A stretch of DNA of 44,060 bases from Dysgonamonadaceae bacterium (lineage in GTDB: Bacteria; Bacteroidota; Bacteroidia; Bacteroidales; Azobacteroidaceae). A program made the translations under genes and the position numbers. The first letter of the stretch is position 1. The number at the start of each line of letters is the position of its first letter. The notes beneath the pieces are model-generated. The model had not been told where the DNA came from. It made no database searches and saw nothing but the letters and a program-made list of their open reading frames with translations. This document shows positions 22,862 through 42,578 of the stretch, piece by piece. The stretch is taken from positions 1 through 44,060 of the forward strand of contig JAIRZF010000139.1 in NCBI GenBank assembly GCA_031267385.1, read 5' to 3'.

Positions 22862-22905
22862 AAGCGTCCTCCTATCCAATTTGCAGAGCGGTGCGGAGGG
22901 CGCTT
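22862..22905 (-). other. Intercistronic hairpin between the PstS-like gene and SusC
   Basis: AAGCGTCCTCC (22862-22872) pairs with 22895-22905 over 11 bp including one G-T wobble, with a 22-nt loop. The T-run is on the + strand side, where no gene needs it. In the leftward transcript it is a stem without a good T-run and could stabilise or partly terminate between the two genes. Confidence 0.5.
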
Positions 22906-23882: not shown

Positions 23883-23922
23883 CTCTCTTTGTTTTATGTA
23901 ATTTATTTTACTTATCAAATTA

Positions 23923-23955: not shown

Positions 23956-24150
23956 CGTTATTTATTTTACAGGTTCTTATACACATAAACAACATGCTGT
24001 CCGACTTTTGGCGCCACACATCATGCATATACAGATATAAGAACGATATAAATTCATTTGCTTAATTTTTTCTGCAAAGTACGGGGTATTCCGGGACATC
24101 TGCAATACCTAGTTTGTGGTATATTTTGGTTGCGAGGTTTTTGGAGGGTG

Positions 24151-24215
24151 TTTTTGGGACTTTTGGGACTTTGGGGATTTTTGGAACAATGAGGGACTTT
24201 TGGGACATGAGGGAC
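24151..24215. repeat. Degenerate 9-10-nt tandem repeat (TTTTGGGAC family)
   Basis: About seven head-to-tail units such as TTTTTGGGAC, TTTTGGGAC, TTTGGGGAT, AATGAGGGAC and ATGAGGGAC. A related pair (GGGACTTTGGGAC) is found just after the regulator gene stop, near 28094-28106. Confidence 0.6.
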
Positions 24216-24278
24216 AAAATGGTAAGACCGTAAGAAAAGGGAGATTACCATCGTTAAAAACAGGGTTGATAGTAACGG

Positions 24279-24488
24279 GGATTCGTGTCCGCGTGGCGCG
24301 TATTCGTGTCCGGGCGGCGCGGATTCGTGTCCGCGTGGCGCGTATTCGTGTCCGGGCGGCGCGGATTCGTGTCCGCGTGACGCGTATTCGTGTCCGCGTG
24401 GCGCGGATTCGTGTCCGGGTGGCGCGTATTCGTGTCCGCGTGACGCGTATTCGTGTCCGAGCGACGCGTACACGTGTCCGAGCGACGC
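24279..24488. repeat. Ten 21-nt GC-rich tandem units (GTATTCGTGTCCGCGTGGCGC family)
   Basis: Ten contiguous units of exactly 21 nt. Variation is confined to a few positions (GTATT/GGATT/GTACA, GCG/GGG/GAG, GGC/GAC). There are no spacers, so it is not a CRISPR array. Since 21 is a multiple of three, the array keeps frames open on both strands and gives misleading peptide repeats. It lies 3' of ruvC in an otherwise A/T-rich spacer; the last two units form part of the hairpin at 24446-24522. Confidence 0.92.
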
Positions 24489-24522
24489 GGACACGTGTAC
24501 GCGTCGCTCGGACACGAATACG
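24446..24522. other. Perfect 34-bp inverted repeat closing the 21-nt array
   Basis: Bases 24446-24479 are the exact reverse complement of 24489-24522, with a 9-nt loop (GAGCGACGC). The left arm is formed by array units 9-10 and the right arm is a reversed copy of the same sequence. There is no T-run, so it is not an ordinary terminator. Confidence 0.9.
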
Positions 24523-25393: not shown

Positions 25394-25467
25394 GGGGCAT
25401 TAGCTCATCTGGCTAGAGCGTTAGACTGGCAGTCTAAAGGTGATCGGTTCGAGTCCGATATGCTCCA
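25394..25467 (+). tRNA. tRNA-Ala (anticodon GGC)
   Basis: The cloverleaf can be folded completely. The acceptor stem GGGGCAT pairs with ATGCTCC and contains the G3-U70 wobble that marks alanine tRNAs. The D-stem is GCTC/GAGC. The anticodon stem TTAGA/TCTAA encloses the loop CTGGCAG, giving anticodon GGC. The T-stem is ATCGG/CCGAT with loop TTCGAGT. The discriminator base is A at 25467 and the CCA end is not encoded. The next gene starts only 34 nt downstream. Confidence 0.96.
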
Positions 25468-25501
25468 CATCAAAAAACCCACCTGTCTTTTCCTTTTATT
25501 T

Positions 25502-28081
25502 ATGAAAAATACTCGCGAATCGGCTTGCCTTAGTTACATATGTATTGCTTTCTGTATATTCACTTGTTTCTCTGTGTTCACTGTTTCGGCTCAGGAGATA
25601 CAATACGGATTGAAATTCAACTCAAACAACTATGAGCCAGAAGCGCGTACGAGTTTGAACCTGAGCCCTGACGGGTATCTTTCCTTTCCTGAAGGGTTTT
25701 CCATGTCATTCGACGCTAAATTTCATTTCAAAGATGTACATATATATGGTTATGTGTTCCGAATTGTTGATGATGAAGAGAATAGCATAGATCTTGTAAT
25801 TGGGGACGCCAATCTTTCTTTTTCCATGCCTTCGGGCGGTATTGCCTCCAACAATACTCTGAGTGATGTAAATATAATTCCTGACCGGTGGGTGACGATC
25901 CGTATAAATGTAGATATTGAAAGGGAAGAGTTGGGGATAAGGATTGGGGATTATTATGTGGGGAAGTGGGATGTTGCTGGGCTGCGGGGATTTAAGAATG
26001 TGGAAATCGTGTTCGGGAAAATAAACGATCCGCGCAAACAGGTGATAGATGTTCCGGATATGACCGTTAAAAACCTGGAAATTGCCGATCTGTCGGGAAA
26101 ACCTCAATATTCATGGAAGCTTTCCATGCATGTATTGGACGGGGTTTATGATGATTTGAAACATCGTTTTGCGAAATGCGAAAATCCGAATTGGTTGTTG
26201 GATAATTATGGAACATGGAAAAAGGAAACGACATTCACCACCGGGAGAACTCCTTATTTATCATACGATTTTGACAGGAATATTGTTGCCGTGGCTGATC
26301 AACATGCTTTTTATACTTTTTCGGTGAGAGACAGTCGTTTGGAGAAGCAGGCTATAAATGAGGAACTATCCTACAATTTGACGGCGAATCAAATGATATA
26401 TAATCCATTGGATTCAAATTTCTATGCATATAATCTGATAAAAGAGAACGACGCCCGGGAATTTGTTCCTTTTGACTTGACGGAAAGCGGGTGGGGGCAT
26501 ACTACCGCACACAGGAACAGTACGGATTACAGGCATCACAACCGGTATTTTTCTCCTCAGCATGATCGCTTGTACCTGTTTGGAGGATATGGACATCTGA
26601 AGTATAAGGGAGGGGTCTTTATATACGATGTTGACAGTAAAATCTGGTCTAAAACGGCATTTAAAGGATATATCCCGGCTCCGCGGTATTTGGGTGGAAT
26701 GGGAAAAATGGATGATGATCATTTGTTGTTGTTTGGCGGTTACGGGAGTGAGACCGGCGACCAGTCGCTCCAGCCACAGTTTTATTATGATTGTTACATC
26801 GCCGATGTGAGAACAATGGAAGCGAAAAAGCTTTGGACATTGGATCATCCAGTTGAGAATTTTGTTGTTTCCAATTCGCTGGTTGTGGATACGGCCAATA
26901 ACTGTTTTTATGCATTGTGTTATCCTTCCATGAAATCCAATTCCCTGATTTCATTGTATAAGTTTTCTTTGGAAAAACCGGAGTACGAAATAATAGCCGA
27001 TCAGATGCCGATTAAGTTTAATGATGTGCTTTCGTACGTGGATCTGTTTTTTGATAAAGCCGAAAATAAACTGATCACTGCGACTTTTGCTCCCGACACG
27101 GCTACTGAAGCAAATGTATCCGTATACACAATATCGTTTCCTCCATTGAAAAAATCAGATATATATCAAACGGAAGGAAGAAGAAGCTTCCCGGTTTTTC
27201 CGCTGATCCTGCTGCTGCTCTTTTCCGCTCTTGTTTTAATCCTGCTCTTTATCGGAAAAAAGAAAAAACAGGCTGTACCCGGAGCGGTCGAAAATGAGAT
27301 AAGGGAAGATAATGATGTGGCTATGGCAGGAATAAATACGGTGAAGCAATTGCAAAAGCAGACTATAAATTTGTTTGGAGGGTTTCAGGTAGTCGATAAA
27401 CAGGAAAATGATATAACGGCAGAGTTCACGCCTTTATTAAAAAACCTGTTCCTGTTGATATTATTGAACACGATTAAAACCGGGAAAGGGGTTTCTTTCT
27501 TTAAATTGAAAGAGATATTCTGGTTCGACAAAAGCGAGGAGAGCGCCAATAACAGCCGGGGAGTTGCATTGAGTAAGATACGGCAAATAATGGGTAATGT
27601 AAGCAAAATCCGGTTTAATAAAAACGGTTCCTGTTGGAATGTCGAATTTGAGGAAGATATTTACTGTGATTATTATGAATCGCTTGTCCTGATAAAAAAG
27701 ATAAAGGAAAACAAGGGAACAACGATCAATGATATTAAAAGGCTTTTGGCAATCGTTATGGTGGGAGAACTTTTGCCTAATGTACAGTTTGAATGGGCAG
27801 ATGCTTTTAAATCTGATTTTTCCAATGAACTTGTCGACCTGATCTTATATCTTATCCGGCAAGATGCCGCCGCATTTTCCGATGATATTTACATTGATAT
27901 GGCAAATGCTCTGTTGGTTCATGATCCATTGAATGAGGATGCCTTGAAATTAAAATGCAAGGTGCTGGTCAAAATGGGTAAAAACGGCCTCGCCAAAAAT
28001 ACATTTACTACCTTTATTAAGGAATATGCTGTTCTGTTTGGGGCGGAATATAAGTATTCTTTCGAACAGATAGTTAATTGA
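25502..28081 (+). CDS. Transmembrane one-protein regulator: LamG/Kelch-like sensor, one helix, SARP-like cytoplasmic domain
   Basis: 859 residues from ATG 25502; the longer in-frame reading runs through the tRNA and is rejected. A signal peptide (to about residue 30) is followed by a LamG/concanavalin-like region (35-200, with SMSFDAKFHF and PDRWVTIRINV). A beta-propeller with two Kelch signatures comes next (RLYLFGGYG at 357-364, HLLLFGGYG at 407-415). One membrane helix spans 563-584 and is followed by KKKKQ, placing the rest in the cytoplasm. Residues 620-716 (INLFGGFQVVD..., FKLKEIFWFDKSEESANNSRGVALSKIRQIMG) look like the winged-helix half of SARP regulators. Residues 720-855 look like their TPR (BTAD) half (ANALLVHDPLNEDALKLKC). 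It lies just upstream of a SusC gene in the same direction, so it probably senses the glycan and switches on this locus. The domain reading is by eye. Confidence 0.75.
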   Translation: MKNTRESACLSYICIAFCIFTCFSVFTVSAQEIQYGLKFNSNNYEPEARTSLNLSPDGYLSFPEGFSMSFDAKFHFKDVHIYGYVFRIVDDEENSIDLVIGDANLSFSMPSGGIASNNTLSDVNIIPDRWVTIRINVDIEREELGIRIGDYYVGKWDVAGLRGFKNVEIVFGKINDPRKQVIDVPDMTVKNLEIADLSGKPQYSWKLSMHVLDGVYDDLKHRFAKCENPNWLLDNYGTWKKETTFTTGRTPYLSYDFDRNIVAVADQHAFYTFSVRDSRLEKQAINEELSYNLTANQMIYNPLDSNFYAYNLIKENDAREFVPFDLTESGWGHTTAHRNSTDYRHHNRYFSPQHDRLYLFGGYGHLKYKGGVFIYDVDSKIWSKTAFKGYIPAPRYLGGMGKMDDDHLLLFGGYGSETGDQSLQPQFYYDCYIADVRTMEAKKLWTLDHPVENFVVSNSLVVDTANNCFYALCYPSMKSNSLISLYKFSLEKPEYEIIADQMPIKFNDVLSYVDLFFDKAENKLITATFAPDTATEANVSVYTISFPPLKKSDIYQTEGRRSFPVFPLILLLLFSALVLILLFIGKKKKQAVPGAVENEIREDNDVAMAGINTVKQLQKQTINLFGGFQVVDKQENDITAEFTPLLKNLFLLILLNTIKTGKGVSFFKLKEIFWFDKSEESANNSRGVALSKIRQIMGNVSKIRFNKNGSCWNVEFEEDIYCDYYESLVLIKKIKENKGTTINDIKRLLAIVMVGELLPNVQFEWADAFKSDFSNELVDLILYLIRQDAAAFSDDIYIDMANALLVHDPLNEDALKLKCKVLVKMGKNGLAKNTFTTFIKEYAVLFGAEYKYSFEQIVN

Positions 28082-28111
28082 GATAAATGTTGGAGGGACT
28101 TTGGGACACTT

Positions 28112-28209
28112 ACATGCAACGTTTCTACTTTTTTTCTCTGAAACAAATATTTTTTTCCGAATTAACGATTAATTAATGCAAATGGTAATGGTTGCATGTG
28201 ATATTTGCA
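28112..28209 (+). promoter_or_regulatory. Candidate regulatory region with TGCA-centred inverted repeats upstream of SusC
   Basis: ACATGCAAC (28112-28120) has its exact complement at 28191-28199, and TGCAAAT (28177-28183) has its complement at 28203-28209. A -7-like box, GATATTTG (one mismatch), lies at 28200-28207. The region sits between the regulator stop and the SusC start and could carry operator sites for the regulator. Confidence 0.4.
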
Positions 28210-28242
28210 CCCACTATTATTCACATTAATATCATTTAATTT

Positions 28243-31200
28243 ATGAAAATCCATTTATTATTGAAAAAACCGGAGAAAAAAGGAAGCTTTTTTTCCCGGA
28301 AAAAGTCGGGTATCCGAATTTTGATGGTAATGATGCTTTGCTTTGGATCTATCTTCAGTAGCTATGCTCAAACCACAAGAAAAATTACCGGAAAAATATC
28401 AGATGAAGCAGGCGATGTTGTCATTGGCGCGACTATCACCGTCGGCAAAGGCTCTTCCGTCGGGACTACAACGGATGCGAACGGAATATTCTCTCTCGAT
28501 GTGCCGGCAGGTATTACTCAGTTATTCATTACTTGCATCGGATATGAACCTCAAACGGTTGATATTCAAAACCGTACTAATGTTGATGTTATTGTGAAAG
28601 AATCGCAACAACTTCTGGATGAAGTCGTGGTGGTTGGTTACGGTACACAAAAAAGGGCGACTATAACCGGTTCTGTTGTTGCTGTTGATAATAAAGAGAT
28701 CATCACAACCAAAAGTACGAATATACAAAACATGCTGACGGGTAAGTTGCCGGGCGTCCGGAACATACAGAAAACATCGGAGCCGGGACAGTTTACGAAT
28801 CAGTTTGATATCCGGGGACTGGGGAATCCGTTGTTGGTTGTCGACGGTGTTCCCCGTGGCGATTTACCGCGTATGGACCCGAATGATGTGGAGAGTATTT
28901 CTATCCTGAAAGATGCTTCGGCTGCTATCTATGGGGTACGTGCTGCAAACGGCGTGGTTTTGATAACGACAAAAAAGGGAGAAAAAGGGAAAACAAAGAT
29001 TGAGTATTCGGGATATTATGGGGTTCAGATTCCTGCAGAAATATTGCGTCCGCTCAAATCGTATGACCGGGCTATATTGGCCAATGAACTCAGGATGAGA
29101 ACGACAACCGACCCGCAAAAGGAGTATGGGCCGGATTATTTCGACCGGTTGGCCCGGGGGGAAATGCCCGATACCGATTGGTATGATGCGGTATTGAAAA
29201 ATACTTCTCCTCAACAACAGCACAATGTATCGTTCAGTGGCGGTTCCGAAAAGATTGATTATTATGTCAATTTAGGGTATACGGATCAGGGTAGTTTTTT
29301 CAAAACCAATTCGGCTAATTACAACCGTTACAACCTGAGAAGTAATTTGAACGCCCAAATTACCAAAGATCTGAAGGCGGGTATTAAACTGAATACGATC
29401 ATGGATGAAACGAACCGCCAGAATTTGAGCAGTTTTGAAATATTCAAACAGCTTTGGCGTTCCCGTCCGGGCGATCCGGTATATGCTAATGACACGGAGC
29501 CTTATTTCCACAGGCCTGAGGTTGAGTTTAATGTGGCGGCGACGATTCATCCTGAACTTACGGGATTTGTGAAGGATAAAAGGAATATGTTCCAGTCTAA
29601 TCTGCACCTGGATTATACTGTTCCTTTTGTGACGGGTTTGACGGCGCGTGTAATGTACAGTTATGACAGAACTTACAACGATAATACCAATTTCAGGAAG
29701 GAGTATAACGAATACCGCCATAATGCGGTGACGGATGAGTTTGAAATTGCTTCGACACGGAACAGCAAGACGGAATTGAGGCGGGTATTCAATACGAGCT
29801 ATTCCACACTGTGGAATGTCCAGTTGAATTATGATAATACGTTCAATAAAACACATCACGTGGGCGCTTTATTGTTGTATGAAGAAAGCTATAATCAGGG
29901 ATATGATTTCAGTGCGAAACGTTTTTTTGATATTCCTATTCCTTATCTTTTTGCGGGTAATTCCGAAAATCAGGAGGGAACCGGAGGCGGTTTGAATGAG
30001 AATGCATCCAAAGGATTGGTCGGTAGGGTAAATTATGATTATGCCGGGAAATACATTGCTGAGTTTTCGTTTCGTTATGACGGATCTTCCAAATTTCCCA
30101 AAGGCAAACAGTGGGGATTTTTCCCCAGCGTGTTGTTGGCTTACCGCATTTCGGAGGAGGCTTTTATTCAGAATAATCTCTCTTTTGTGCAGAACCTGAA
30201 ATTACGGGGTAGCTGGGGACGGCTTGGAGACGACGGCGCTTCTCAATTCCAGTTTATAGAGGGTTATGATTATCCGCAATCGTATCACAACAAGCAAAAT
30301 CTGGCGAGAGGTTCTGTATTCGGGAATACTTTTGTGAATGCTCTTGGTTTCCGTGCCGCGCCAAATCCGAATTTGACATGGTATACGGCGGATATGCTTA
30401 ATCTGGGTGTCGATGCTGATCTCTGGAGCGGACTGTTTGGTTTTTCCGTCGATCTTTTTCAACGGGATCGCGACGGATTGCTGGCGACTCCCGCCGTTGT
30501 GGTGCCCGCCACATTTGGTTCGAACATTTCACAGGCTAACCTGAATGCCGACCGTACTTCGGGATTTGAAGTGGAATTGAGGCATCGCAATAAAATAAAT
30601 GAGTTCAGATACAATGTGTCTGCTTCCGTGCAGATGACCCGGAGCATGTGGACAGAAAGGTTAATGCCGGAACGTTCCAACTCCTACGATTACTGGCGCA
30701 ATAATTATATAGACCGTTATAAGGATGTCTGGTTCGGAAAGGCTGCTAGTGGTAATTATAAATCTTATGACGATGTTGCCAATTCTATTTATGCTACTGC
30801 TAATTCCCTTCCGGGTGACCCGATTTATGAAGACTGGAACGGTGACGGCATCATTAACGACCGGGATCATTATCCTATTGCGACTACAACTAATTCTGAT
30901 AATAACGGCGGACTTCCGGGTACTAATCTTAATAATTCCCGGAATTATCCTCTCATGAATTTCAGCATGACTTGGGGAGGCCAATGGAAATGTATTGACT
31001 TCAATTTATTGTTTCAGGGCGCGTCCATGTCGTACATCGGGTATGGAGAACAATTGTTAAACCCGCTTTCATGGGATGGGAATGCATTGGATTTACTGTT
31101 TGACAGATGGCATCCTGCTGATCCGGACATCGATCCGTATGATCCGGCGGTTCAGTGGGTTTCGGGATATTATCCTTACGGAAGGGTGAGGGCTGAGGAA

Positions 31201-31449
31201 ACATCCGGCTTCAACTTGCAGGATGGTACTTATCTGCGTTTGAAAAGCGCTGAAATAGGTCTTACGGTTCCCAAAAACCGCACGTTTGACAGGATCGGGA
31301 TTAAGAATCTGCGGGTATATGTCAATGCTTATAACTTACTTACTCTCACAGGCGTGAAAGGACTTGATCCGGAAAAACCATCGGAAAGCTATGGTTATCT
31401 TTATCCTTTGAGCAGAACTTTTAATTTTGGAGGTTCAATCACTTTTTAA
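28243..31449 (+). CDS. SusC/RagA-family TonB-dependent transporter of the polysaccharide locus
   Basis: 1068 residues. A rather long basic N-terminus (KKPEKKGSFFSRKKSGIRIL) precedes the hydrophobic signal segment ending SSYAQ. Then come the carboxypeptidase-regulatory-like domain (KITGKISDEAGDVVIGATITV), the signature DEVVVVGYGTQKRATITGSV, the plug (ISILKDASAAIYGVRAANGV) and the barrel ending FNFGGSITF. It imports oligosaccharides across the outer membrane with the SusD encoded 32 nt downstream. No STN domain is present, so signalling is not of the FecA/anti-sigma kind. That fits control by the membrane regulator upstream. Confidence 0.96.
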   Translation: MKIHLLLKKPEKKGSFFSRKKSGIRILMVMMLCFGSIFSSYAQTTRKITGKISDEAGDVVIGATITVGKGSSVGTTTDANGIFSLDVPAGITQLFITCIGYEPQTVDIQNRTNVDVIVKESQQLLDEVVVVGYGTQKRATITGSVVAVDNKEIITTKSTNIQNMLTGKLPGVRNIQKTSEPGQFTNQFDIRGLGNPLLVVDGVPRGDLPRMDPNDVESISILKDASAAIYGVRAANGVVLITTKKGEKGKTKIEYSGYYGVQIPAEILRPLKSYDRAILANELRMRTTTDPQKEYGPDYFDRLARGEMPDTDWYDAVLKNTSPQQQHNVSFSGGSEKIDYYVNLGYTDQGSFFKTNSANYNRYNLRSNLNAQITKDLKAGIKLNTIMDETNRQNLSSFEIFKQLWRSRPGDPVYANDTEPYFHRPEVEFNVAATIHPELTGFVKDKRNMFQSNLHLDYTVPFVTGLTARVMYSYDRTYNDNTNFRKEYNEYRHNAVTDEFEIASTRNSKTELRRVFNTSYSTLWNVQLNYDNTFNKTHHVGALLLYEESYNQGYDFSAKRFFDIPIPYLFAGNSENQEGTGGGLNENASKGLVGRVNYDYAGKYIAEFSFRYDGSSKFPKGKQWGFFPSVLLAYRISEEAFIQNNLSFVQNLKLRGSWGRLGDDGASQFQFIEGYDYPQSYHNKQNLARGSVFGNTFVNALGFRAAPNPNLTWYTADMLNLGVDADLWSGLFGFSVDLFQRDRDGLLATPAVVVPATFGSNISQANLNADRTSGFEVELRHRNKINEFRYNVSASVQMTRSMWTERLMPERSNSYDYWRNNYIDRYKDVWFGKAASGNYKSYDDVANSIYATANSLPGDPIYEDWNGDGIINDRDHYPIATTTNSDNNGGLPGTNLNNSRNYPLMNFSMTWGGQWKCIDFNLLFQGASMSYIGYGEQLLNPLSWDGNALDLLFDRWHPADPDIDPYDPAVQWVSGYYPYGRVRAEETSGFNLQDGTYLRLKSAEIGLTVPKNRTFDRIGIKNLRVYVNAYNLLTLTGVKGLDPEKPSESYGYLYPLSRTFNFGGSITF

Positions 31450-31481: not shown

Positions 31482-33626
31482 ATGAAAAAAATACATTTGA
31501 CAGCAGTTGCATTACTGTTTTCATTGAGTTGTTTAATATCCTGTGTGGATCTGGATATAACTCCCACATCAATCATTACTGAAAGGGATGTGTACAATGA
31601 GACTGGGATTAAGGCCTATATGGCGGGGATGTACAATCACTTGCCCATGGAGGATTTTAAGTACGATACGAATAGCGACGGCCAGGCCGGCGACGACCAG
31701 ATTGGCGGCGGATATAATGTCGGGAACGGCATCAGTGTCTGGAATTTCTGGAATTCTACCGGCGAAATGGTGAACCGGAACAATACCAATCTTCCACTTC
31801 ATCGGAGAGGTTATTGGAAGGGTGGATTTCAGGTAATCCGCCGGGTGAATACCCTGATTAATAATCTGCCGAATTACCCGGAACTGGAAGCGGAGTCTAA
31901 ATCATGGATTGGCGAGGCTAAGTTTATCAGGGCTTATATTTATTTTCAATTGGCAAAACGTTATGGCGGTTTGCCGAAAATTTTTGAGGCGCAGACGCTT
32001 GATCCCAGTGACGAGTCCACATTGTGGGTCCCTCGTGAAAGTCATGCCGGCACATACGATTTCATCCTGCAAGATCTGAATGAGGCTATTGAGAGTATGC
32101 CGGAAACAAGTGAGGCCGGTCGCGCCAACAAATATGTAGCAGCCGCTTTCAAGAGCCGCGTAGCTCTTTACGCGGGCACTACCGCGCGTTATGGTAGCAT
32201 GAAATTCCCTGATTGGGAAGTGGACGGGGTATTGCTTCAGGGTATACCGGAAAACAAAGCCAACGATTATTTTAAACAGGCATGGGACGCCGCCAAACTG
32301 GTAGCAGACGGTGGCCGGTATGAGCTTCACAGGGCGAATGGGGATAAAACGGAAAATTATGCTGAAGTATGGGAGAAATGTGATGCCAATAAGGAATCCA
32401 TCTGGTTACGCAAATACGATTTCAATATGGCGGTACATTCATTCAACTCCATAATGGCTCCTCCCCGGATGTGTACCGAAGGAGGCGACCGTTACAATCC
32501 TACTCTCGACTGGGTCGAATTATTCGATGGACTGCCGCTTGATGAGAAAGGAAACTTCAGCGCTTTTGACGAAAACGGCAATTATATTGTGTATGATAAC
32601 TGCCTGCAGTTGTGGGATAGTGCGGAACCACGGCTCAGAGCAAACATCCTGATTCCGGGAACCCTCTACAAAGGAGGAATGAAACTGGATTTGCGCGCCG
32701 GTATTATTAAGGAAGCATACGATCCCGCAACAGACAGATTCAAGAAGTTTACCGTCGATGACGGACGAGAAAGACAAGGTCTTAACTCCGGTTCGGTGTG
32801 GAACAAAACCGCTTATCCGGATGGCAATCCTTTCCGGAACAGGACTATTTTCGATTGGTCTACAGACCCGTCGGCCAACCAGACGGATCCGTATCTCCGT
32901 TCGGACGGGCAGAAAATTTTCAAGAACGGATTGGACGGACCAAGGGTAACCGGGACTACGAATACCTCCAATACAGTAACCGGATTTTTCGGACGCAAGC
33001 ATTTGAACATCACGCTTCCGAAAAGTGAAACGGTAAATCATACTTCTACTCAATCCTGGATCGAGATACGGTATGCAGAAGTGTTGCTCAACCGTGCTGA
33101 AGCTGCCATCGAATTGTCGCAGAGTGGCGAAGCTGCATACAATGGAACAAACCTGTTGCAGGATGCTTTCGACTGCATCAATAATATCCGCGACCGCGCC
33201 GGGGCAAACTTGTTGACCGGTACGTCCGAACTTTCTACCGAACCGGCTTATACCCGATGGACTAATCCGGGGCCAAAAGGACAAGGCGCATTTGTGGAAG
33301 CTCCCAACAGGGGGTTGCAGATCGTTCGCGTGGAAAGATACAAAGAACTGGCTTTTGAAAGCAAAATCTATTGGGATTTGCTCCGCTGGTTTACTTACGA
33401 CACACAAATCAGGAATTATTTCAGAAGAGGATTGTATCCGATTATGTACGCCAAAGGTGCTACTGTAGACGAAAACGGTATCCCCGACGGGAAATACATT
33501 TATGATGCTAAATCCGCCGACGAAGCCGCCGGACAGGTTACTTTCAGCGTTAATAATTATTATGAGGGTATTCCGACTGATGAGTTGAAGAATAATCCTT
33601 TGTTGCAAAAGAACAGGAATCAATAA
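31482..33626 (+). CDS. SusD/RagB-family glycan-binding lipoprotein (large form)
   Basis: 714 residues, longer than the common 500-600. Lipobox SLSCLISC (C21), then VDLDITPTSIITERDVY at the N-terminus, GEAKFIRAYIYFQLAKRYGGLP in the TPR part, and VERYKELAFESKIYWDLLRW near the end. The extra length comes from insertions in the second half (about 330-500). It forms the lid of the SusC transporter encoded upstream. The DUF3823 gene follows after 18 nt. Confidence 0.95.
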   Translation: MKKIHLTAVALLFSLSCLISCVDLDITPTSIITERDVYNETGIKAYMAGMYNHLPMEDFKYDTNSDGQAGDDQIGGGYNVGNGISVWNFWNSTGEMVNRNNTNLPLHRRGYWKGGFQVIRRVNTLINNLPNYPELEAESKSWIGEAKFIRAYIYFQLAKRYGGLPKIFEAQTLDPSDESTLWVPRESHAGTYDFILQDLNEAIESMPETSEAGRANKYVAAAFKSRVALYAGTTARYGSMKFPDWEVDGVLLQGIPENKANDYFKQAWDAAKLVADGGRYELHRANGDKTENYAEVWEKCDANKESIWLRKYDFNMAVHSFNSIMAPPRMCTEGGDRYNPTLDWVELFDGLPLDEKGNFSAFDENGNYIVYDNCLQLWDSAEPRLRANILIPGTLYKGGMKLDLRAGIIKEAYDPATDRFKKFTVDDGRERQGLNSGSVWNKTAYPDGNPFRNRTIFDWSTDPSANQTDPYLRSDGQKIFKNGLDGPRVTGTTNTSNTVTGFFGRKHLNITLPKSETVNHTSTQSWIEIRYAEVLLNRAEAAIELSQSGEAAYNGTNLLQDAFDCINNIRDRAGANLLTGTSELSTEPAYTRWTNPGPKGQGAFVEAPNRGLQIVRVERYKELAFESKIYWDLLRWFTYDTQIRNYFRRGLYPIMYAKGATVDENGIPDGKYIYDAKSADEAAGQVTFSVNNYYEGIPTDELKNNPLLQKNRNQ

Positions 33627-33644: not shown

Positions 33645-34415
33645 ATGAAAACAGTAAGTAAATATATAATCTTTCTTTTTTGCTGTGTACTGGCTGTATC
33701 CTGTGAAATAGATAATTATGACGGTCCGGACGCAACTATACAAGGGAATCTTTATGACCACAACGGACAGCCGTTACAGGTGATTCAGGGAGCGGGTTAC
33801 ATCCGGGCGAGAGAGATTAGCTGGGGAAAGGGCAATGAGAATGTCTTTGTCGGAAACCAGACACTGTACGTACAACAGGACGGCAGTTACCGGAATACCA
33901 AATGGTTTTCCGGAGAATACCGCATGTTGCCCTATGCCGGAAACTTTTTCCCGTATGACGACGAAAAATTGGACGCCGACGATGCCGGTGAACTGGTGAA
34001 AATATCCGGTACTGCTACGAAAGATTTTACGGTTACTCCTTATCTGACTATCGAATGGGTAAAGAAGCCGGCTACTACAGCCGACTATTATCTGGAGTGC
34101 TCTGTTCGTTTCAAAAGGAATCAGAAAGCCGGATACGAAATGCCCGACGTAAGGGAAGCCTGGTTGCGCGTATCCCGTTCAATTAATGGAGCTGCCGCCG
34201 ACGGGCAATATTTCAAGGTCAAAATGGATCTGACCAATGATATGGAAGGGCAGGAAATAACTTTCCGGACGGATATTCCATTGAAATATACCGGTATCGA
34301 CTATTGGATTCGTGTTCAGATGGATTGTAAAACGGCTGCCGGGAAACCGGAGACCAACTATCCGGGCATGGGACAGGCGAACTATACTACTATTGAAAAG
34401 ATACATGTAAATTAA
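33645..34415 (+). CDS. DUF3823-family lipoprotein of the polysaccharide locus
   Basis: 256 residues with a lipobox (CCVLAVSC, C20). The start of the mature part, EIDNYDGPDATIQGNLYDHNG, is the hallmark of DUF3823 proteins, which follow SusC and SusD in many Bacteroidota loci. The first domain looks like a carboxypeptidase-regulatory beta-sandwich (GTATKDFTVTPYLTIEWV), and the second is a further beta-domain. A surface glycan-binding role like SusE/SusF is likely but not shown. A strong hairpin follows before the enzyme genes. Confidence 0.88.
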   Translation: MKTVSKYIIFLFCCVLAVSCEIDNYDGPDATIQGNLYDHNGQPLQVIQGAGYIRAREISWGKGNENVFVGNQTLYVQQDGSYRNTKWFSGEYRMLPYAGNFFPYDDEKLDADDAGELVKISGTATKDFTVTPYLTIEWVKKPATTADYYLECSVRFKRNQKAGYEMPDVREAWLRVSRSINGAAADGQYFKVKMDLTNDMEGQEITFRTDIPLKYTGIDYWIRVQMDCKTAAGKPETNYPGMGQANYTTIEKIHVN

Positions 34416-34465: not shown

Positions 34466-34501
34466 GGCAACGCCTGCGGTGTTTAAATGAAATATCCTCA
34501 T

Positions 34502-35911
34502 ATGAAAAATAAAATATTAATCTTAGCAATTGGTCTTGTTTGTCTTATATTCAATGCCTATCCTAAAATAACATTACCGACCATACTGGATGACAATATG
34601 GTACTGCAACAAAAAACGGATGTGAAACTGTGGGGAAACGCACATCCCGGCTCCAAAGTTGAAATAAAACCGTCGTGGGCTGATAAAACATATTCCTCAT
34701 TGTGTCATCCGGACGGGAAGTGGGAGTGTTCAATCCCAACGCCTGAAGCGGGAGGCCCCTACGAAATCCATCTTAGCGACGGAGAGGAGATCTTCCTGAA
34801 GAATATTTTAATAGGAGAAGTCTGGTTCTGCTCCGGACAATCAAACATGGAAATGCCCATGAAAGGATTCGACCGGCAGCCTGTGGAAAATACAAACAAC
34901 GTGATTGCCAAGGCCAAGGTTTCAACTCCAATCCGGATGTATACAACCGATTCACAGGATGGGAAATGGATACGCCAATTCAGCAAACAACCCCAAACAG
35001 ACTGTACCGGCAAATGGCTGGAACATTCCCCCGAAAATGTTGCAAATACGAGCGCAGTCGCTTATTTTTTCGCTCAATACATCCGGGAAGTCTTGGATGT
35101 CCCCGTCGGTATCATCATCTCTTCGCAGGGCGGATCGAAAGTGGAAGCCTGGATGAGTAAAGAGGCTCTAAAGCCTTTTGAGGAAATCAAAAATCAGACA
35201 AGTACCCCCTGTGTGTTATACAATGCAAAAATTGCTCCCTTGACGAATTTTGCCATAAAAGGATTTCTCTGGTATCAGGGAGAAAGTAACCGGGATAATG
35301 TGCAACTATATAAGAAGTTGATGCCTGCTTTTGTTGAAGATCTAAGAAACAAGTGGAACGTAGGCAACTTGCCGTTTTACTACGTACAGATTGCTCCTTT
35401 CAATTACGAGGGGGCGGACGGTACCTCTTCTGCCAAATTGCAGGAAGTTCAACTCCAACACATGAAAGAAATTCCGAACTCCGGAATGGTAACAACACTT
35501 GATGTCGGACATCCTGTTTTTATCCATCCCACGAATAAGAAAACCGTTGGGGAAAGGCTGGCTTATTGGGCTTTGGGTGATACATACAACAGGAAAGGCT
35601 TTGGATATAAACCTGCGGTTTATAGATCTATGGAGATTAAGATGGAGAAAATTTACATCAATTTCGATCATGCACCCAGGGGACTTTCTCCTATGTGGAC
35701 GCCGCTAAAAGGATTCGAAATAGCAGGTGAAGACCGGGTTTTCCATCCTGCAAAAGCTGAAATTGAAAGCCAGTCCGGCCGCCTGGCGGTATCCTCTGAA
35801 AGTGTAACTTCTCCTGTAGCTGTCAGGTATGCCTATAAAAATTATACCGAGGCAACGCTATTCGGTGTCGACGGTATTCCGGTGTCGCCATTCCGGACAG
35901 ACAACTGGTAA
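34502..35911 (+). CDS. Secreted SGNH-type acetylesterase (sialate O-acetylesterase family)
   Basis: 469 residues from the ATG giving MKNKILILAIGLVCLIFNAYP, a clean signal peptide; an ATG five codons earlier is possible. The N-terminal beta-domain (ITLPTILDDNMVLQQ) is typical of this family. The nucleophile serine is in FCSGQSNMEMPM (S114). The oxyanion and late catalytic blocks are seen as SQGGSKVEAWM, WYQGESN and the late FIHPTNKKTVGERLA with the catalytic histidine. Family members remove O-acetyl groups from sialic acid or from plant polysaccharides such as xylan. With glycoside hydrolases next to it, it probably de-acetylates the target glycan. The next gene starts 4 nt later. Confidence 0.92.
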   Translation: MKNKILILAIGLVCLIFNAYPKITLPTILDDNMVLQQKTDVKLWGNAHPGSKVEIKPSWADKTYSSLCHPDGKWECSIPTPEAGGPYEIHLSDGEEIFLKNILIGEVWFCSGQSNMEMPMKGFDRQPVENTNNVIAKAKVSTPIRMYTTDSQDGKWIRQFSKQPQTDCTGKWLEHSPENVANTSAVAYFFAQYIREVLDVPVGIIISSQGGSKVEAWMSKEALKPFEEIKNQTSTPCVLYNAKIAPLTNFAIKGFLWYQGESNRDNVQLYKKLMPAFVEDLRNKWNVGNLPFYYVQIAPFNYEGADGTSSAKLQEVQLQHMKEIPNSGMVTTLDVGHPVFIHPTNKKTVGERLAYWALGDTYNRKGFGYKPAVYRSMEIKMEKIYINFDHAPRGLSPMWTPLKGFEIAGEDRVFHPAKAEIESQSGRLAVSSESVTSPVAVRYAYKNYTEATLFGVDGIPVSPFRTDNW

Positions 35912-35915
35912 ACGG

Positions 35916-38900
35916 ATGAAAGCAATCAGACTCTGTTTTTTATTCCTGCTGTTTTTTATTGATACTATCGCTGCCGGCAATGGTATCCGGGGATGGATTA
36001 TTCTTTCAAATGATATGGATAATGCTGTCGAAACAATAAAAGCGGCTAAAAAATATAATGTCAATCATCTCCAGTTGTCTCATCAGATCATTCATGATTT
36101 AAGAGAGCTGAGGGACAAGAAGGTTTGCGATCAGGTCAATCATCTTGTTCGTCTGGCTCATTCGGAAAACATTGATGAAGTATTTGTCTGGGATCACAGC
36201 TTTTATCCTTTAGACTATTATCCCGATCAATTCAGAACCGGGTCTAACGGAACTATTAATCTGGATAATGATGAATTCTGGCAATGGTACAAGGAAGATT
36301 ATCGCCGGATGTTAGACCTCGCGCCCGAAATTGACGGCCTTATTCTGACTTTTATAGAGACGGGCGCTTATGCCGAGAAACAACATTCGGTCAAAATGCT
36401 GAAGCCGGAAGAGAAATTAGCCGCAGTGGTAAATGCCGTTGCCGATGTGGTAATCGGAGAAAGAGGGAAGAAGCTGTACATCCGCACATTCGCCTATTCG
36501 GAGGAAGAATATGCCGGAATTGTGGGCTGTATTAAACATCTCAAGAATGATAAAGTCGCTTTGATGATAAAAGAAACGCCTCACGACTTTTTTCTGACTC
36601 ATCCCGACAATCCGTTTATAGGTAAACTCAACAGACCGGCAATTGTAGAATTTGATACAGGTAATGAATACAATGGACAGGGTATTATAGCCAATACCTG
36701 GCCGGAATATGTCGCCGGGAGATGGAAAGACTATATCAACCGTCCCGATGTAGTTGGGTATGTTGCCCGTACCGACCGTTACGGAACAACCAAAATAGTG
36801 GGAACGCCGAATGAGATACTGTTGCATACTTTGAAGCGGGTGACCGAGGAGCCGTCAATAGCGATCGACCGGATTTATGATGAGTTTATTAGTTCAAAAT
36901 ATGGGAAAGAAGTCTTGCAGCCCATCAAAAGCGCTTTCAAGAAATCGTTCGATATTGTAACATCGGTTCTTTATACGCTTGGGACGAGCACAGCCGATCA
37001 TTCTTCTTTGAATTACGATAATAATAAATGGAGTTATAGCCGGCATGTGTCGGGAAGATGGATGGATCCTCCCGTCGTTTTTGTCAAACACAATGTGAAT
37101 AAAGAGTTTCATTATTGGAAAGACATTATCAATCGTATAGCTCCTCCTCAATACAAAGTTGAATCCGGCGAACAAATGGACAGTACCTACTATGCTTATC
37201 TTCTGGCTGAAAAGAAGTATGGCGTCGAACTTGCGTCGGCGGCATTGAAAGAAATCGAAGAGACAAAAGGCAAGCTGGCCGCTCAGGAGTATCAGGAATT
37301 GTACTTGCTTTTTCAACGCACTTCTCTCACTGCCCGCCTGCACGAAGCTGTTTGTACGGCCTATTACGGATACCGGATTTATAAACGGGGGCAAGAATAT
37401 CATCCTGCCGGATTGAAAGCCCGGCTCCTGTCTTCTTTGGAAGAAATAAAGCGCATATCAGACGAAATGAAGCTTTTAAAAAACACCTATCCAATTGGAC
37501 AATACGATTGGCTGAAAGATGCGGATCATGCGTTGAAATACCGGGAATCAATTATTGCAGCATTTCCCGTAAGCCCGGAAAAGGATATTTATCCGGGAGC
37601 GGATGAAAAAAGTTTATCCCGTGCACAGTATTTTTCGTGGATTAACAACACCAATGAAGGAGCGACCGAAGAACAAACAATAATCAATCTTGATTTTTTT
37701 GAATGGCTTCGAAAAGAATACGGAATGAAGCTGGACATATATGCATTTGACGCCGGGTTTATTGATGGGAAAAATTTTTACGGGACAATGGATTCGGAAC
37801 GCTTCAGAAAGAATTTCCCCAACGGACTTGGCACGATTCATAAAAAAGCCGGAGCAAATAATATCCGCCTGGGGCTTTGGGGAGGACCGGACGGATTTGG
37901 AAATACTCCGGAAGAAGCTGCAAAAAGAAAAAACATGTTAGTCGCTTTATGTCGTGAATACAACTGGGCCTTATTCAAATTCGATGCTGTATGCAGCCCG
38001 CTAAGGAGAGAGAAAGAAGAAGATTTCATAGACCTGATGGAACAATGCCGGGTGTATTCTCCCGATTTGATATTGCTAAATCATCGCTTGGGTCTGGATA
38101 AAGCGAAGCCTTATGCAACGACTTTTCTTTGGGAAGGGCGTGAAGCTTATATTGATGTCAATTCCTCAAACAATACAACTGCTGTTCATAGCAGGGTTGG
38201 AAATATGGAACGGGGACTTGTTCCCGGCTTGAAACGCTTGACCGAAGATCATGGCGTTTGTCTTTCGTCCTGCCTCGACTATTGGGAAGACGATTTGATA
38301 TTGCAGGCGTTCAGCCGTTCACTGATATTAGCTCCGCAAATATACGGCAATCCGTGGCTGTTGTCCGACAATGAATTCCCCAAACTGGCAAGGATATACA
38401 ATTTGCACCGGATGTTTTCAAAGATATTGATAAACGGAATGAAACTTCCGGAGAGCTATGGAACGGATGCCGTTTCACGGGGAGATGACAAAACGAGGCT
38501 GATTACATTGAAAAATTTAAGCTGGACAAACCGGGAAGTCAGGATAAAACTAGGCCGGGAAATCGGACTCCTGGAAGAGAAGCGTGTAGAAGCCCGCTTG
38601 TTTCATCCGGTCGAACGACTATTAGGCTCATTTGAATACGGCGATTCGTTAACCGTTTCAATCCCGCCGTTTCGCTCCTTGCTGTTATCCGTGTCATCGG
38701 GCGATGAATACAAAGAACCCGGCGTTTCCGGAGTTGATTTTGAAATAGTGAAGCATGTTCCGGGACAACCGCTCATAATTCGTCTTTTGGGATTACCCGG
38801 AACAGAGAATCGTATAAAGTTGGAAAATATTTCCGGTGTAAAAAGAGTTGAAATTGATGGGAAAAATAGTCCGGAACTAAAGAATAACCAATCAGTGAAC

Positions 38901-40241
38901 ATTAAATTTGACGGTAAAAAACCGGAAGACCATTACCACCGTAAAATAGTGGAAATGCAACGTTCCGAAATACCGGAAGACGCCATATCTTTGTACGAAG
39001 CTACCGCATTTGCAGCAGATAATAATGCCATGGAAGTCCGTTCATTATTCCGTTCCGGGGAAACCAATATCCCTCAGGTGAAAGCCGCCCGCGACGCCTT
39101 TTTTCACCAACCCACATTCATTAATCGAGGAATATGGGATAAGCAATTGTTTGACGGAGATATGAACACCGGCTTTTGGCCTTCCCGGAGACACGGAGAT
39201 ATCCGGATAAAAGGAGGTTGCTTCCGGTTGGATTTGGGAGAATCAATCCACGTTGACAGTATTCTTTTCAAAGTCAATAATGAATATGAACTCCAGCCGT
39301 TTTTGATTGATGAAGGAAATTTCGCAAGCATATCACCAGATTTGAAAACCTGGAAGTCAGTCACCTTTTTAGCCGGAACAACCATGAATGTCCCGGTGGG
39401 AGAAAAAATGCGATACTTGAAAATGAATCCATTTCCCGATACGATGGCAGAAATTGAAGTTTACAGTAACGGCGTAAAAATTCCGTCCGATACATTCAGG
39501 GCAAGCAACCTGTATGCCGATTCAAACAAGTTGAAATGCGCCGGAGCATGGTCTGCTTCCTTTCAATTGGATGAACTCCCGAAAGCCGGCTGCATTGCAG
39601 TTGCAATAAACGGCGAACATGGAGTCGAGGGCGCTTACGCCATGCTCAAAGTGGACGGGCAGTATGTGGGATCGCCTTCCCGGTCGGTTTCTTATCCCGC
39701 CAACCCATGGGAAAACGGAACAGCTAGAACAGCATCAAACTATACTTATTTCTTTCCACTGACGGAAAATATGAAAGATAAAAAAATAGAGGCCTTCGTT
39801 TTGGGATATGACGGCGGTAAATTGGATCTGAAGCCTGAAATATGGCTGTCTGCCTATCCGGCGCCCTATGAAGAGAAAATAATGATCGTTACATATAGAA
39901 ACAATGATTCTGTCCACAATGCAACATGCAACGCGACTAGAATCAATGATTCTATTCACAATACGCTCCATACTGCGACTAGAAACAATGATTCTGTTCA
40001 CAATACGCTCCGTACTGCGACTAGAAACAATGATTCTATTCACAATACGCTCCGTACTGCGACTAGAAACAATGTTTCTGTTCACAATATGCTCCGTACT
40101 GCGACTAGAAACAATGATTCTGTTCACAATATGCTCCGTACTGCGAGTAGAAACAATGTTTCTGTCCACAATGCAACATGCAACGCGAGTAGAAACAATG
40201 TTTCTGCTCACAATGGATTATTCTTGCCAAAAGATTTATAA
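35916..40241 (+). CDS. Two-barrel glycoside hydrolase with F5/8C-like domain and C-terminal 14-residue repeats
   Basis: 1441 residues with a signal peptide (to about residue 20). Residues 23-550 form a TIM-barrel-like module with GLILTFIETGAYAE and IVEFDTGNEYNGQG, resembling alpha-glucuronidase or hexosaminidase-type hydrolases; I cannot fix the family. Residues about 560-930 look like a clan GH-D (GH27/GH36, alpha-galactosidase-like) module with IYAFDAGFIDG, LFKFDAVCSPLR (D690 as candidate nucleophile), WEGREAY and DYWEDDLILQAFSRS. Residues about 1065-1186 are a discoidin (F5/8C, CBM32-like) domain (LFDGDMNTGFWPSRR, FRLDLGESIHVDSI). A last beta-domain (1195-1315) is followed by 7.6 copies of a 14-residue repeat (1328-1434). 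The frame is unbroken throughout. It lies between the acetylesterase and GH31 genes, with 4- and 15-nt spacers. Confidence 0.75.
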   Translation: MKAIRLCFLFLLFFIDTIAAGNGIRGWIILSNDMDNAVETIKAAKKYNVNHLQLSHQIIHDLRELRDKKVCDQVNHLVRLAHSENIDEVFVWDHSFYPLDYYPDQFRTGSNGTINLDNDEFWQWYKEDYRRMLDLAPEIDGLILTFIETGAYAEKQHSVKMLKPEEKLAAVVNAVADVVIGERGKKLYIRTFAYSEEEYAGIVGCIKHLKNDKVALMIKETPHDFFLTHPDNPFIGKLNRPAIVEFDTGNEYNGQGIIANTWPEYVAGRWKDYINRPDVVGYVARTDRYGTTKIVGTPNEILLHTLKRVTEEPSIAIDRIYDEFISSKYGKEVLQPIKSAFKKSFDIVTSVLYTLGTSTADHSSLNYDNNKWSYSRHVSGRWMDPPVVFVKHNVNKEFHYWKDIINRIAPPQYKVESGEQMDSTYYAYLLAEKKYGVELASAALKEIEETKGKLAAQEYQELYLLFQRTSLTARLHEAVCTAYYGYRIYKRGQEYHPAGLKARLLSSLEEIKRISDEMKLLKNTYPIGQYDWLKDADHALKYRESIIAAFPVSPEKDIYPGADEKSLSRAQYFSWINNTNEGATEEQTIINLDFFEWLRKEYGMKLDIYAFDAGFIDGKNFYGTMDSERFRKNFPNGLGTIHKKAGANNIRLGLWGGPDGFGNTPEEAAKRKNMLVALCREYNWALFKFDAVCSPLRREKEEDFIDLMEQCRVYSPDLILLNHRLGLDKAKPYATTFLWEGREAYIDVNSSNNTTAVHSRVGNMERGLVPGLKRLTEDHGVCLSSCLDYWEDDLILQAFSRSLILAPQIYGNPWLLSDNEFPKLARIYNLHRMFSKILINGMKLPESYGTDAVSRGDDKTRLITLKNLSWTNREVRIKLGREIGLLEEKRVEARLFHPVERLLGSFEYGDSLTVSIPPFRSLLLSVSSGDEYKEPGVSGVDFEIVKHVPGQPLIIRLLGLPGTENRIKLENISGVKRVEIDGKNSPELKNNQSVNIKFDGKKPEDHYHRKIVEMQRSEIPEDAISLYEATAFAADNNAMEVRSLFRSGETNIPQVKAARDAFFHQPTFINRGIWDKQLFDGDMNTGFWPSRRHGDIRIKGGCFRLDLGESIHVDSILFKVNNEYELQPFLIDEGNFASISPDLKTWKSVTFLAGTTMNVPVGEKMRYLKMNPFPDTMAEIEVYSNGVKIPSDTFRASNLYADSNKLKCAGAWSASFQLDELPKAGCIAVAINGEHGVEGAYAMLKVDGQYVGSPSRSVSYPANPWENGTARTASNYTYFFPLTENMKDKKIEAFVLGYDGGKLDLKPEIWLSAYPAPYEEKIMIVTYRNNDSVHNATCNATRINDSIHNTLHTATRNNDSVHNTLRTATRNNDSIHNTLRTATRNNVSVHNMLRTATRNNDSVHNMLRTASRNNVSVHNATCNASRNNVSAHNGLFLPKDL
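39897..40217 (+). repeat. 42-nt in-frame tandem repeat (7.6 copies) at the 3' end of the glycosidase gene
   Basis: Each unit encodes 14 residues such as RNNDSVHNTLRTAT. The first and seventh copies share a variant end (NATCNA) while the inner five share TLxTA or MLRTA. Several units contain the near-palindrome AGAAACAATGTTTCT. The region ends eight codons before the stop. Confidence 0.92.
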
Positions 40242-40256
40242 TAATATAATAACAAA

Positions 40257-42578
40257 ATGAAGAAATACATCCTTTTGATTTGCCTTTTCATATTCAATAT
40301 AGATGGGATTATTGCCGGAAATAGCAAGGACGAACCCTATATCGCCGCCTGGGACATTTATGTCAGTTCATGGGAGAAAAAAAATGATGCGCTTGTCATC
40401 GAAACCGTCGACGGCATTCTATCCCTGAGGCCTTATGAATTTGGCGCTTTGCATTATAAACTCAGCCCTTTAAATCAAAAGGAAGACAGAAACAGTTATG
40501 CCGTCATCCATGAATTTCCCGTCGCTGATTTCAAAGTAGAAGAAAATGATAGTGATTTAATGCTGATTACCGGCAAATACAAATTTGTCCTGCATAAATT
40601 CACAGGCAATTTCAGTTTTTATGATTCAAACGGTAAATTATTGCTCAAAGAGACCACAAATAAAAGACAGGCAACACGGGAAGATTCAATAAAACCCTAT
40701 AGCCTGTTTGAAGTGACTCCCGATGAAGCCCTCTATGGTTTAGGACAATTCAGAGATAATGCCTTGAATCTGCGCGGGCAAAAACGCGATCTGGTTCAAT
40801 TCAATACCCAGGCAGCCGTGCCGGTCGTCTATTCAACAGCAGGCTGGGGATTATTCTGGGATAATCCGTCCCGTACAGTCTTTGAAGACAATGACAAAGG
40901 AATGAGTTTTACTTCCGATTTTGGAACTCAATTGGATTATTATCTCTTTGCCGGAAATACACTTGATACGCTGATATCATCCTACCGGCAATTAACAGGA
41001 AAAGCCCCGATGATTCCCTACTGGTCGCTGGGTTTCCATCAAAGCCGTAACAAATATGCAACACAAGAAGAAGTCCTGAGTATCGCTCAGAAAATGCAAG
41101 CCGGAAATATTCAGATGAACTCTATTTTCATTGACTATTTTTACTGGCAAAAATACGGGACAGGTTCCCACCGGTTTGATGAGAATATGTTCCCCGATCC
41201 CCAAGAAATGTTGAGTACCTTACACAACAAGTACCAGACCAAAGCGATAATCACCATTTGGCCGGCCTTCAAAAAAGGAACAGCTCATTATGACGAACTC
41301 GAATCGAAAGGTATGCTGCTTGCCGGCGCCAAAGCCCTGGACGGGATAATTTATGACGTCTTTAACCCGGAGGCAAGGAAAATTTATTGGAAACAGGTTC
41401 TTCCCCTTGTACAAACAGGATTGGACGGTTGGTTTCTTGACGGGCCGGAACCGGATCAGGTGAACTCGTTTCTTCTTGCCAATACATTTGCCGGTCCGGC
41501 AGCAACGGTAAGAAATTTATATCCCCTGTTACATGCGGAGAATTTTTATGACAACCTGCTGAAATTGTATCCTGATAAACGCCCCTACATTCTCACGCGC
41601 TGCGCCTGGGCATCCCAACAAAGAACAGGCGCCGCTGTCTGGTCGGGAGATATCCCGACAACTTTCGACGAACTGCGGAAACAAGTCACAGCCGGATTGA
41701 ATTTTGTAGCTACCGGCATTCCCTACTGGACAACCGACATTGGCGGCTACCAGGGAGGAGACCCTGAAAACGAAGAATACAGGGAATTGTTTACCCGCTG
41801 GTTTGAGTACGGCACGTTTTGTCCCGTTTTTCGTTCTCACGGACGGCGTTATCCGGGAGATACAAAAGCTCCGAATGAACTTTGGGCGTACGGTGAAGAA
41901 GTACAGGCGATTTGTACCGGATACATCAATCTAAGATATACACTGATGCCTTACATATACACATTAACAGGAGATGTCACACATAAAAATTACACGCCGA
42001 TGCGCCTGCTTACATTCGATTTCCCGGATGATAAAAACAGCCTGGATTGTAAAGACCAGTTTATGTATGGCCCGGCATTACTGATATGTCCGGTATTGGA
42101 GGCCGGCGCTGTTGACCGGGAAGTCTATTTGCCGGAAGGCTGTAAGTGGATAGATTTTTGGACAGGTAAAGCGTATAACGGAGGACAGCGGTTTATTGCG
42201 GATGCTCCTAAAAACAAGCTGCCTTTGTACGTGAAATCGGGGGCGATCATTCCGGCTTATCCCGATAATAAAAAAACAAATACGCCGGACAGCCCGGTTA
42301 AAATTTATATTTATAAAGGGAATGACGGATATTTTGAACTGTATAAAGACGATGGCGAATCATTCGGATACAAACAGAACAAATTCGCCTATATTCCTTT
42401 CTCGTGGGATGATAAAAACAACGAATTACTGATCGGTTCACAAACAGGTGATTATAATAAAGGCGAAGTTCAGGAATTTCAAATTGTTCTTGTTAACGGC
42501 GAGTATGAAGATCTACATTCGATCCCTGTAAAAAAACACCTGCAATACAAAGGAAGCAAACAAAAGGTCAAATTATGA
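40257..42578 (+). CDS. Secreted GH31-family alpha-glycosidase (alpha-glucosidase or alpha-xylosidase type)
   Basis: 773 residues with a signal peptide (MKKYILLICLFIFNIDGIIAG). The GH31 nucleophile motif is GWFLDGPEPD (D395) and the acid/base is in VWSGD (D465). Further signs are YGLGQFRDN and the substrate-binding RSHGRR (526-531). GH31 enzymes release alpha-linked glucose, xylose or galactose with retention. There is no PA14 insert as in some xyloglucan alpha-xylosidases. It is the last gene of the rightward locus and is convergent with the toxin gene, leaving 43 nt between the stops. The exact substrate cannot be told from sequence. Confidence 0.94.
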   Translation: MKKYILLICLFIFNIDGIIAGNSKDEPYIAAWDIYVSSWEKKNDALVIETVDGILSLRPYEFGALHYKLSPLNQKEDRNSYAVIHEFPVADFKVEENDSDLMLITGKYKFVLHKFTGNFSFYDSNGKLLLKETTNKRQATREDSIKPYSLFEVTPDEALYGLGQFRDNALNLRGQKRDLVQFNTQAAVPVVYSTAGWGLFWDNPSRTVFEDNDKGMSFTSDFGTQLDYYLFAGNTLDTLISSYRQLTGKAPMIPYWSLGFHQSRNKYATQEEVLSIAQKMQAGNIQMNSIFIDYFYWQKYGTGSHRFDENMFPDPQEMLSTLHNKYQTKAIITIWPAFKKGTAHYDELESKGMLLAGAKALDGIIYDVFNPEARKIYWKQVLPLVQTGLDGWFLDGPEPDQVNSFLLANTFAGPAATVRNLYPLLHAENFYDNLLKLYPDKRPYILTRCAWASQQRTGAAVWSGDIPTTFDELRKQVTAGLNFVATGIPYWTTDIGGYQGGDPENEEYRELFTRWFEYGTFCPVFRSHGRRYPGDTKAPNELWAYGEEVQAICTGYINLRYTLMPYIYTLTGDVTHKNYTPMRLLTFDFPDDKNSLDCKDQFMYGPALLICPVLEAGAVDREVYLPEGCKWIDFWTGKAYNGGQRFIADAPKNKLPLYVKSGAIIPAYPDNKKTNTPDSPVKIYIYKGNDGYFELYKDDGESFGYKQNKFAYIPFSWDDKNNELLIGSQTGDYNKGEVQEFQIVLVNGEYEDLHSIPVKKHLQYKGSKQKVKL

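Follow-up and report, generated by a model that had tools for sequence, protein, structure and literature searches.

A putative membrane-spanning regulator with a predicted SARP-type head and a candidate repeat operator in front of a SusCD locus of a Dysgonamonadaceae bacterium

Many glycan loci of the Bacteroidota have no assigned regulator. Those membrane-anchored regulators of glycan loci that have been described in Bacteroides are of two types, SusR-like proteins and hybrid two-component systems (HTCS) (PMC3878776). SusR is described as a membrane protein that has its sensor in the periplasm and its DNA-binding part in the cytoplasm; its DNA-binding domain was reported to have no resemblance to known types, and its predicted sites each consist of two boxes at a distance of 67 or 77 bp. 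The direct repeats of HTCS are on average about 21 bp apart (PMC3878776). Here we describe a gene from a 44,060-nt contig of a Dysgonamonadaceae bacterium (JAIRZF010000139.1, assembly GCA_031267385.1; this whole stretch is hereafter the window), which precedes a SusCD locus and codes for a putative one-component regulator of 859 amino acids (aa). Its cytoplasmic part is predicted to resemble the Streptomyces antibiotic regulatory proteins (SARP). These bind direct repeats spaced 11 or 22 bp, with 8 bp from the last one to the -10, and their protomers sit side by side, contacting RNA polymerase at sigma region 4 and elsewhere (PMC10936776); the repeat of the SARP AfsR is CGTT(T/C)ATCGNN (PMC10972967). 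The features of the gene and of the region that follows it are:

25502..28081, + strand, regulator gene, 859 aa, predicted one-component membrane-spanning SARP-type regulator (open reading frame and translation, orthologues)
25502..25588, + strand, signal peptide, residues 1–29 (predicted helix 5–29, hydrophobic N-terminus in homologues)
25607..26089, + strand, lectin/LamG-like beta-sandwich, about residues 36–196 (model strands, Foldseek alignment to NanB/NanC)
26204..27148, + strand, kelch beta-propeller, residues 235–549 (Pfam kelch matches, structure comparison)
27194..27256, + strand, single transmembrane helix, residues 565–585, followed by KKKK (hydropathy, model helix)
27356..27652, + strand, predicted winged-helix DNA-binding domain, residues 619–717 (C-terminal model; AfsR, EmbR and OmpR-type matches; weak Trans_reg_C in homologues)
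27668..28078, + strand, BTAD-like TPR domain, residues 723–859 (C-terminal model; AfsR/EmbR match over the whole domain pair; weak BTAD in homologues)
28162..28189, + strand, predicted operator, direct repeats TTAAC at 28162, TTAAT at 28173 and GTAAT at 28185 (spacing of 11 and 12 bp)
28200..28207, + strand, predicted -7 box GATATTTG, with 19 bp from the start of the last repeat to TTTG

The first-pass annotation of the window, made from the sequence alone, had likened the cytoplasmic winged-helix plus TPR part to SARP activators, and had staked this on a winged helix in residues 620–716. The head (residues 613–859) was aligned over 63 homologues and then folded alone, yielding a model (predicted local distance difference test, pLDDT, 92.4; predicted template modelling score, pTM, 0.88) in which residues 619–717 form a winged helix within a SARP fold. 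Among 350,542 PDB chains, the model matched at E<1e-3 only AfsR (two entries, E 1.7e-6) and EmbR (two entries, E 3.6e-5), with matches covering about 250 residues, that is, the full domain pair. Z was 14.6 for the AfsR SARP domain and 14.0 for EmbR, the next value, 9.4, belonging to a lone OmpR-type winged helix. AfsR and EmbR were found by fold comparison alone; PDB sequence searches, whether started from the whole protein or from the head profile, missed both. Weak profile matches appeared in the homologues for BTAD (11/63, best E 0.0026) and Trans_reg_C (5/63, best E 0.00029), with none in the window regulator, and the tryptophan and arginine positions of the winged helix were invariant or nearly so across the 63 sequences. 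The AfsR and EmbR fold matches, with which the profiles agree weakly, indicate that the modelled cytoplasmic part is a SARP-type head, with winged helix and BTAD as one fold unit.

AfsR and EmbR likewise have a winged helix followed by a BTAD over about 240 residues, and tandem repeats one turn apart near the -10 or -7. However, their extra domains are C-terminal to the SARP part, whereas in the window regulator the head is the last part of the chain, preceded by an exported sensor and a membrane helix; the literature cited here describes no membrane helix for AfsR or EmbR, and host phylum and target genes differ. The window regulator does not fit the classical SARP, an actinobacterial activator of secondary metabolism without a membrane helix, and we thus speak of a SARP-type head because of the Bacteroidales host, the membrane helix and the exported sensor. 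Membrane one-component regulators of the ToxR/CadC type have an N-terminal OmpR-type winged helix, one membrane helix and an exported sensor, and no BTAD. Compared by this general description, they share with the window regulator the combination of these three elements in one chain, but their domain order is reversed and the BTAD is absent.

The main promoters of Bacteroidota carry a -7 box of consensus TAnnTTTG. Between the regulator stop codon and the SusC start (28243), on the same strand, there are 161 nt, as first annotated. A simple alignment of regulator-SusC intergenic regions was poor, SusC starts being called too early in loci L055 and L056. The TTAAY repeats at 11–12 bp were spotted by reading these gaps and then tested, using an array score over three units (15 positions, spacing of 11 or 12) in which values of at least 14 were considered strong. 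In the window, the 46-bp element at 28162–28207 is the only array scoring at least 14 in 44 kb, and in a pattern search it was unique in its draft genome; no strong array was found upstream of the regulator gene, where it was sought as a sign of autoregulation. In the first set of loci, 14 out of 46 same-strand gaps reached this score, versus none of 40 SusC promoters not adjoining a regulator.

As the first set had suggested the motif, 40 new loci (37 from another family and three from elsewhere in the phylum) were scored with the rule fixed beforehand. Strong arrays were found in 18 of the 23 same-strand promoters of this held-out set and in one of its 13 convergent ends; in several convergent cases (L222, L225, L229, L234 and L236) the array is instead flanked by the regulator and a divergent gene. 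No strong array was seen in 20 SusC promoters of one held-out genome, which brings unrelated SusC promoters overall to 0/60. Clustering of the regulators at 60% identity left 10/14 positive clusters for same-strand loci vs. 1/9 for convergent ones, and a consensus-free test for three-fold repetition at a given lag showed a peak at 11–12 in the linked promoters, with flat controls. The linked promoters carry three or more TTAAY repeats spaced 11–12 bp, ending about 15 bp upstream of the -7 box, and a spacing of 19 or 20 bp between the last TTAA and the start of TTTG in a -7-type box is seen in 24/32 arrays, compared to 3/168 TTAAY sites of control promoters. These observations define what is new here, a TTAAY repeat array at a fixed distance from a -7 box in promoters beside regulator genes.

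Genome-wide motif counts were obtained by pattern search. In a genome assembled in one contig (G409, 5.2 Mb), with five regulator genes, the search for three exact units gave five sites, of which four lie no more than about 320 bp from one of these genes, and in G397 five of the seven genomic sites are near a regulator. Additional copies of the window element occur in two other genomes, as expected for a local regulon. In G043 a near copy precedes a second promoter, which belongs to a SusC gene some 7 kb away from the regulator, and in G045 two copies adjoin the regulator. The direct control of the locus proposed in the first-pass annotation, which had pointed to 28082–28242 as the target, gains strength from a family-specific predicted repeat element within this region.

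This geometry (11–12 bp, with the last repeat 19–20 bp before TTTG) is nearly that of Streptomyces SARP sites, and the AfsR repeat resembles the TTAAY units. SusR-like proteins share with the family the membrane location, the periplasmic sensor, the cytoplasmic DNA-binding part, the linkage to susCD and the lack of phosphotransfer, but are set apart, by their published descriptions, by their two distant boxes in place of three or more close repeats. HTCS are also membrane-anchored sensor-to-DNA regulators of susCD loci with direct-repeat sites, although their repeats are more widely spaced and they contain histidine kinase, receiver and AraC domains, none of which had a Pfam or NCBIfam match in the window regulator. 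The Sigma-70 region and FecR domain were equally without match in those searches, unlike what is expected for an extracytoplasmic function (ECF) sigma/anti-sigma pair. The family fits neither the SusR-like pattern, as described, nor that of HTCS; from SusR it differs by its SARP-type head, its sensor and its predicted operator. The regulator contains no phosphotransfer domain, consistent with the suggestion of a signal crossing the membrane without phosphotransfer; this property is not in itself new, since SusR has also been described in this way (PMC3878776).

The regulator gene starts with an ATG at 25502 and ends with a stop codon at 28079–28081. Close orthologues (L055, L004 and L056) are alignable with it from residue 1, sharing start and architecture. 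The predicted structure of the full-length protein (mean pLDDT 85.9) shows, in this order, an export helix, a beta-sandwich, a propeller, a membrane helix and, after a disordered linker, a compact domain that runs from residue 619 to the end, in agreement with the proposal of an exported sensor, a single membrane helix and a cytoplasmic part in one chain. The signal peptide is likely cleaved near VSA|QE. Pfam and NCBIfam searches with the window regulator matched kelch alone (Pfam, residues 319–497), with no match for the C-terminal head, and the predicted propeller at 235–549 is similar to the kelch domains of LZTR1 and KLHDC2 (Z up to 22), bearing out the Kelch assignment. The LamG-like assignment held in part: the predicted beta-sandwich (residues about 36–216) is modelled as lectin-like, and Foldseek aligned the sensor to the lectin-propeller sialidases NanB and NanC with a low template modelling (TM) score. 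A Laminin_G_2 match was below threshold in one homologue, and the LamG identity is likely, not formal. A hydrophobic peak coincides with the predicted helix at 565–585, whose position is kept in nearly all of 51 homologues.

When each regulator is represented once, a SusC gene on the same strand comes next in 14/69 loci of the first set and 8/36 held-out loci, together 22/105. The number of SusC genes per genome (at least 30 to more than 50 confirmed, and up to about 140 first-look candidates among the matches listed) gives an expected rate of about 4%, and the linkage of regulator and SusC genes is well in excess of it (binomial 1.7e-10, related loci being not fully independent). Other next genes code for glycoside hydrolases (GH) of families GH92, GH95, GH2, GH99 and GH5, or for a pectate-lyase-like protein. 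The anticipated conserved linkage to SusCD was, therefore, found in a broader form: the regulator adjoins SusC or glycoside hydrolase genes in many genomes, SusC being a frequent but not the sole neighbour.

We consider it probable that this protein is a one-component, membrane-anchored regulator of the glycan-utilization locus that follows it, signalling via its helix and activating by assembly of its heads on the repeats. The periplasmic lectin/kelch part would bind an oligosaccharide brought in by SusCD, and the ligand would change the association or conformation of the regulator via the single membrane helix. The promoter would then be switched on by several SARP heads that occupy the repeats side by side, one to each turn of the helix, and make contact with RNA polymerase in the manner of the AfsR SARP domain. 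DNA binding, the glycan nature of the ligand and the direction of control are all putative here.

Several points weigh against this interpretation. The architecture and fold of the regulator rest on predicted structures, and the third repeat unit of the window, GTAAT, has one mismatch. The consensus was fixed after the discovery loci had been read, so that the held-out set alone counts as a test, and five of its 23 same-strand promoters have no strong array. None of the five genomic sites of G304 is near a regulator, for which reason the repeat site is not universal, or is variable. Besides, many homologues do not adjoin SusC, some having unrelated genes as neighbours (CorA, glutamate synthase, DNA methyltransferase), and the repeats could suit a repressor just as they could an activator.

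The same protein and operator could also function with a different route for the signal, namely proteolysis near the membrane on binding or loss of the ligand, which would free a soluble SARP head. This seems unlikely, since cleavage is not required in the cited SARP literature; no protease gene was seen beside the homologues, although none was looked for. It is quite improbable that the regulator is instead a repressor that leaves the repeats when the glycan is present: the repeats, ending shortly before the -7 box, overlap the upstream part of the promoter, and a protein bound there could obstruct the polymerase, but their geometry closely matches that of SARP activators, and repeats overlapping a poor -35 are typical of SARP activation (PMC10936776). 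Finally, a structural or carbohydrate-binding protein with a SARP-like end that has lost its DNA binding, linked to SusC by its glycan role alone, would agree with a SARP sequence similarity too low for Pfam in the window regulator, but is hard to reconcile with the (nearly) invariant residues of the winged helix and the matching operator arrays, and we regard it as very improbable.

The locus presumably controlled by the membrane-anchored regulator, and annotated from the following matches, comprises:

28243..31449, + strand, SusC/RagA outer-membrane transporter (TIGR04056, 816.7 bits)
31482..33626, + strand, SusD/RagB lipoprotein (Pfam SusD_RagB, SusD-like_3)
33645..34415, + strand, DUF3823 protein (Pfam)
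34487..35911, + strand, SASA-type carbohydrate acetylesterase (Pfam PF03629)
35829..40241, + strand, 1470-aa protein with a GH67-like match below cut-off (Pfam E 0.0047), start codon uncertain
40257..42578, + strand, GH31 glycosidase of the alpha-glucosidase/xylosidase type (Pfam GH31 domains)

The 1470-aa protein is conserved in loci L003 and L005, with about 80% identity over the compared parts, and is possibly an undescribed glycosidase. The acetylesterase, the GH31 glycosidase and the sub-threshold GH67-like match hint at substituted xylan as the substrate of the locus, too weakly for a claim. A tRNA-Ala(GGC) gene (25394–25468) ends 33 nt before the regulator start codon, with ruvC divergent beyond it. 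Different genes surround the close regulator orthologues in L004 and L005, and for this reason the regulator-locus unit may have moved. The window also contains a second SusCD pair on the minus strand (18119–22879), whose SusC is about 29% identical; upstream of it is a 331-aa exported protein (22923–23918) without a Pfam match that, by eye, resembles a periplasmic substrate-binding protein. The open reading frame at 24054–24515, on the minus strand, consists of tandem GHEYASRGHESAP-like repeats and is probably not a gene but a repeat artefact.

Homologues of the regulator occur across the Bacteroidales and are rare outside this order. In the family of the window, 23 of 48 genomes have a homologue at E<=1e-20, with up to seven in one genome, and named close relatives are from Dysgonamonadaceae, Tannerella and Candidatus Symbiothrix metagenome-assembled genomes. 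Homologues were present in 41/101 genomes of another family, in at least 20 of 344 genomes of the order sample, a lower bound, as scoring was confined to the top two candidates of each genome, and in 5/247 genomes of a phylum-wide sample, that of the window included. Persicobacter replicons carry near full-length homologues, and one from elsewhere in the phylum (G617:C1:1152943-1155449) is split over two frames, with one stop, and possibly decaying. The same SARP-type head occurs with other exported sensors in L125, L127 and L128, which have a LamG_3 domain at about residues 400–560, in the shorter homologues (479–511 aa) of L126 and L124, and in L273:2072-4750. A homologue from a Parabacteroides distasonis plasmid (WP_211744650.1) keeps the head with another sensor, and there about five 11-bp repeats precede an operon with a Gfo/Idh/MocA oxidoreductase.

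We found no description of this family in the open-access literature searched, which omits most subscription journals and preprints; it is large, apparently undescribed and has its own recognizable predicted DNA site. Most likely, it adds a third kind to the membrane-anchored regulators of glycan loci, next to SusR and HTCS. With somewhat less assurance than for the window locus, we favour the broader view of a third, undescribed and widespread class in the Bacteroidota, in which exchangeable exported sensors (lectin-kelch, or LamG plus another domain) would be joined by one helix to a SARP head that activates from the membrane by assembly on three to five repeats of 11–12 bp, in a phylum with -7 boxes in its main promoters. 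If this is true, the whole family would gain a function and a target site for which any genome could be scanned, and the glycosidases under the control of each paralogue would become predictable. It would also raise the question of how a single membrane helix governs side-by-side assembly on DNA, and would carry the SARP fold beyond antibiotic regulators, to nutrient sensors located in the membrane.
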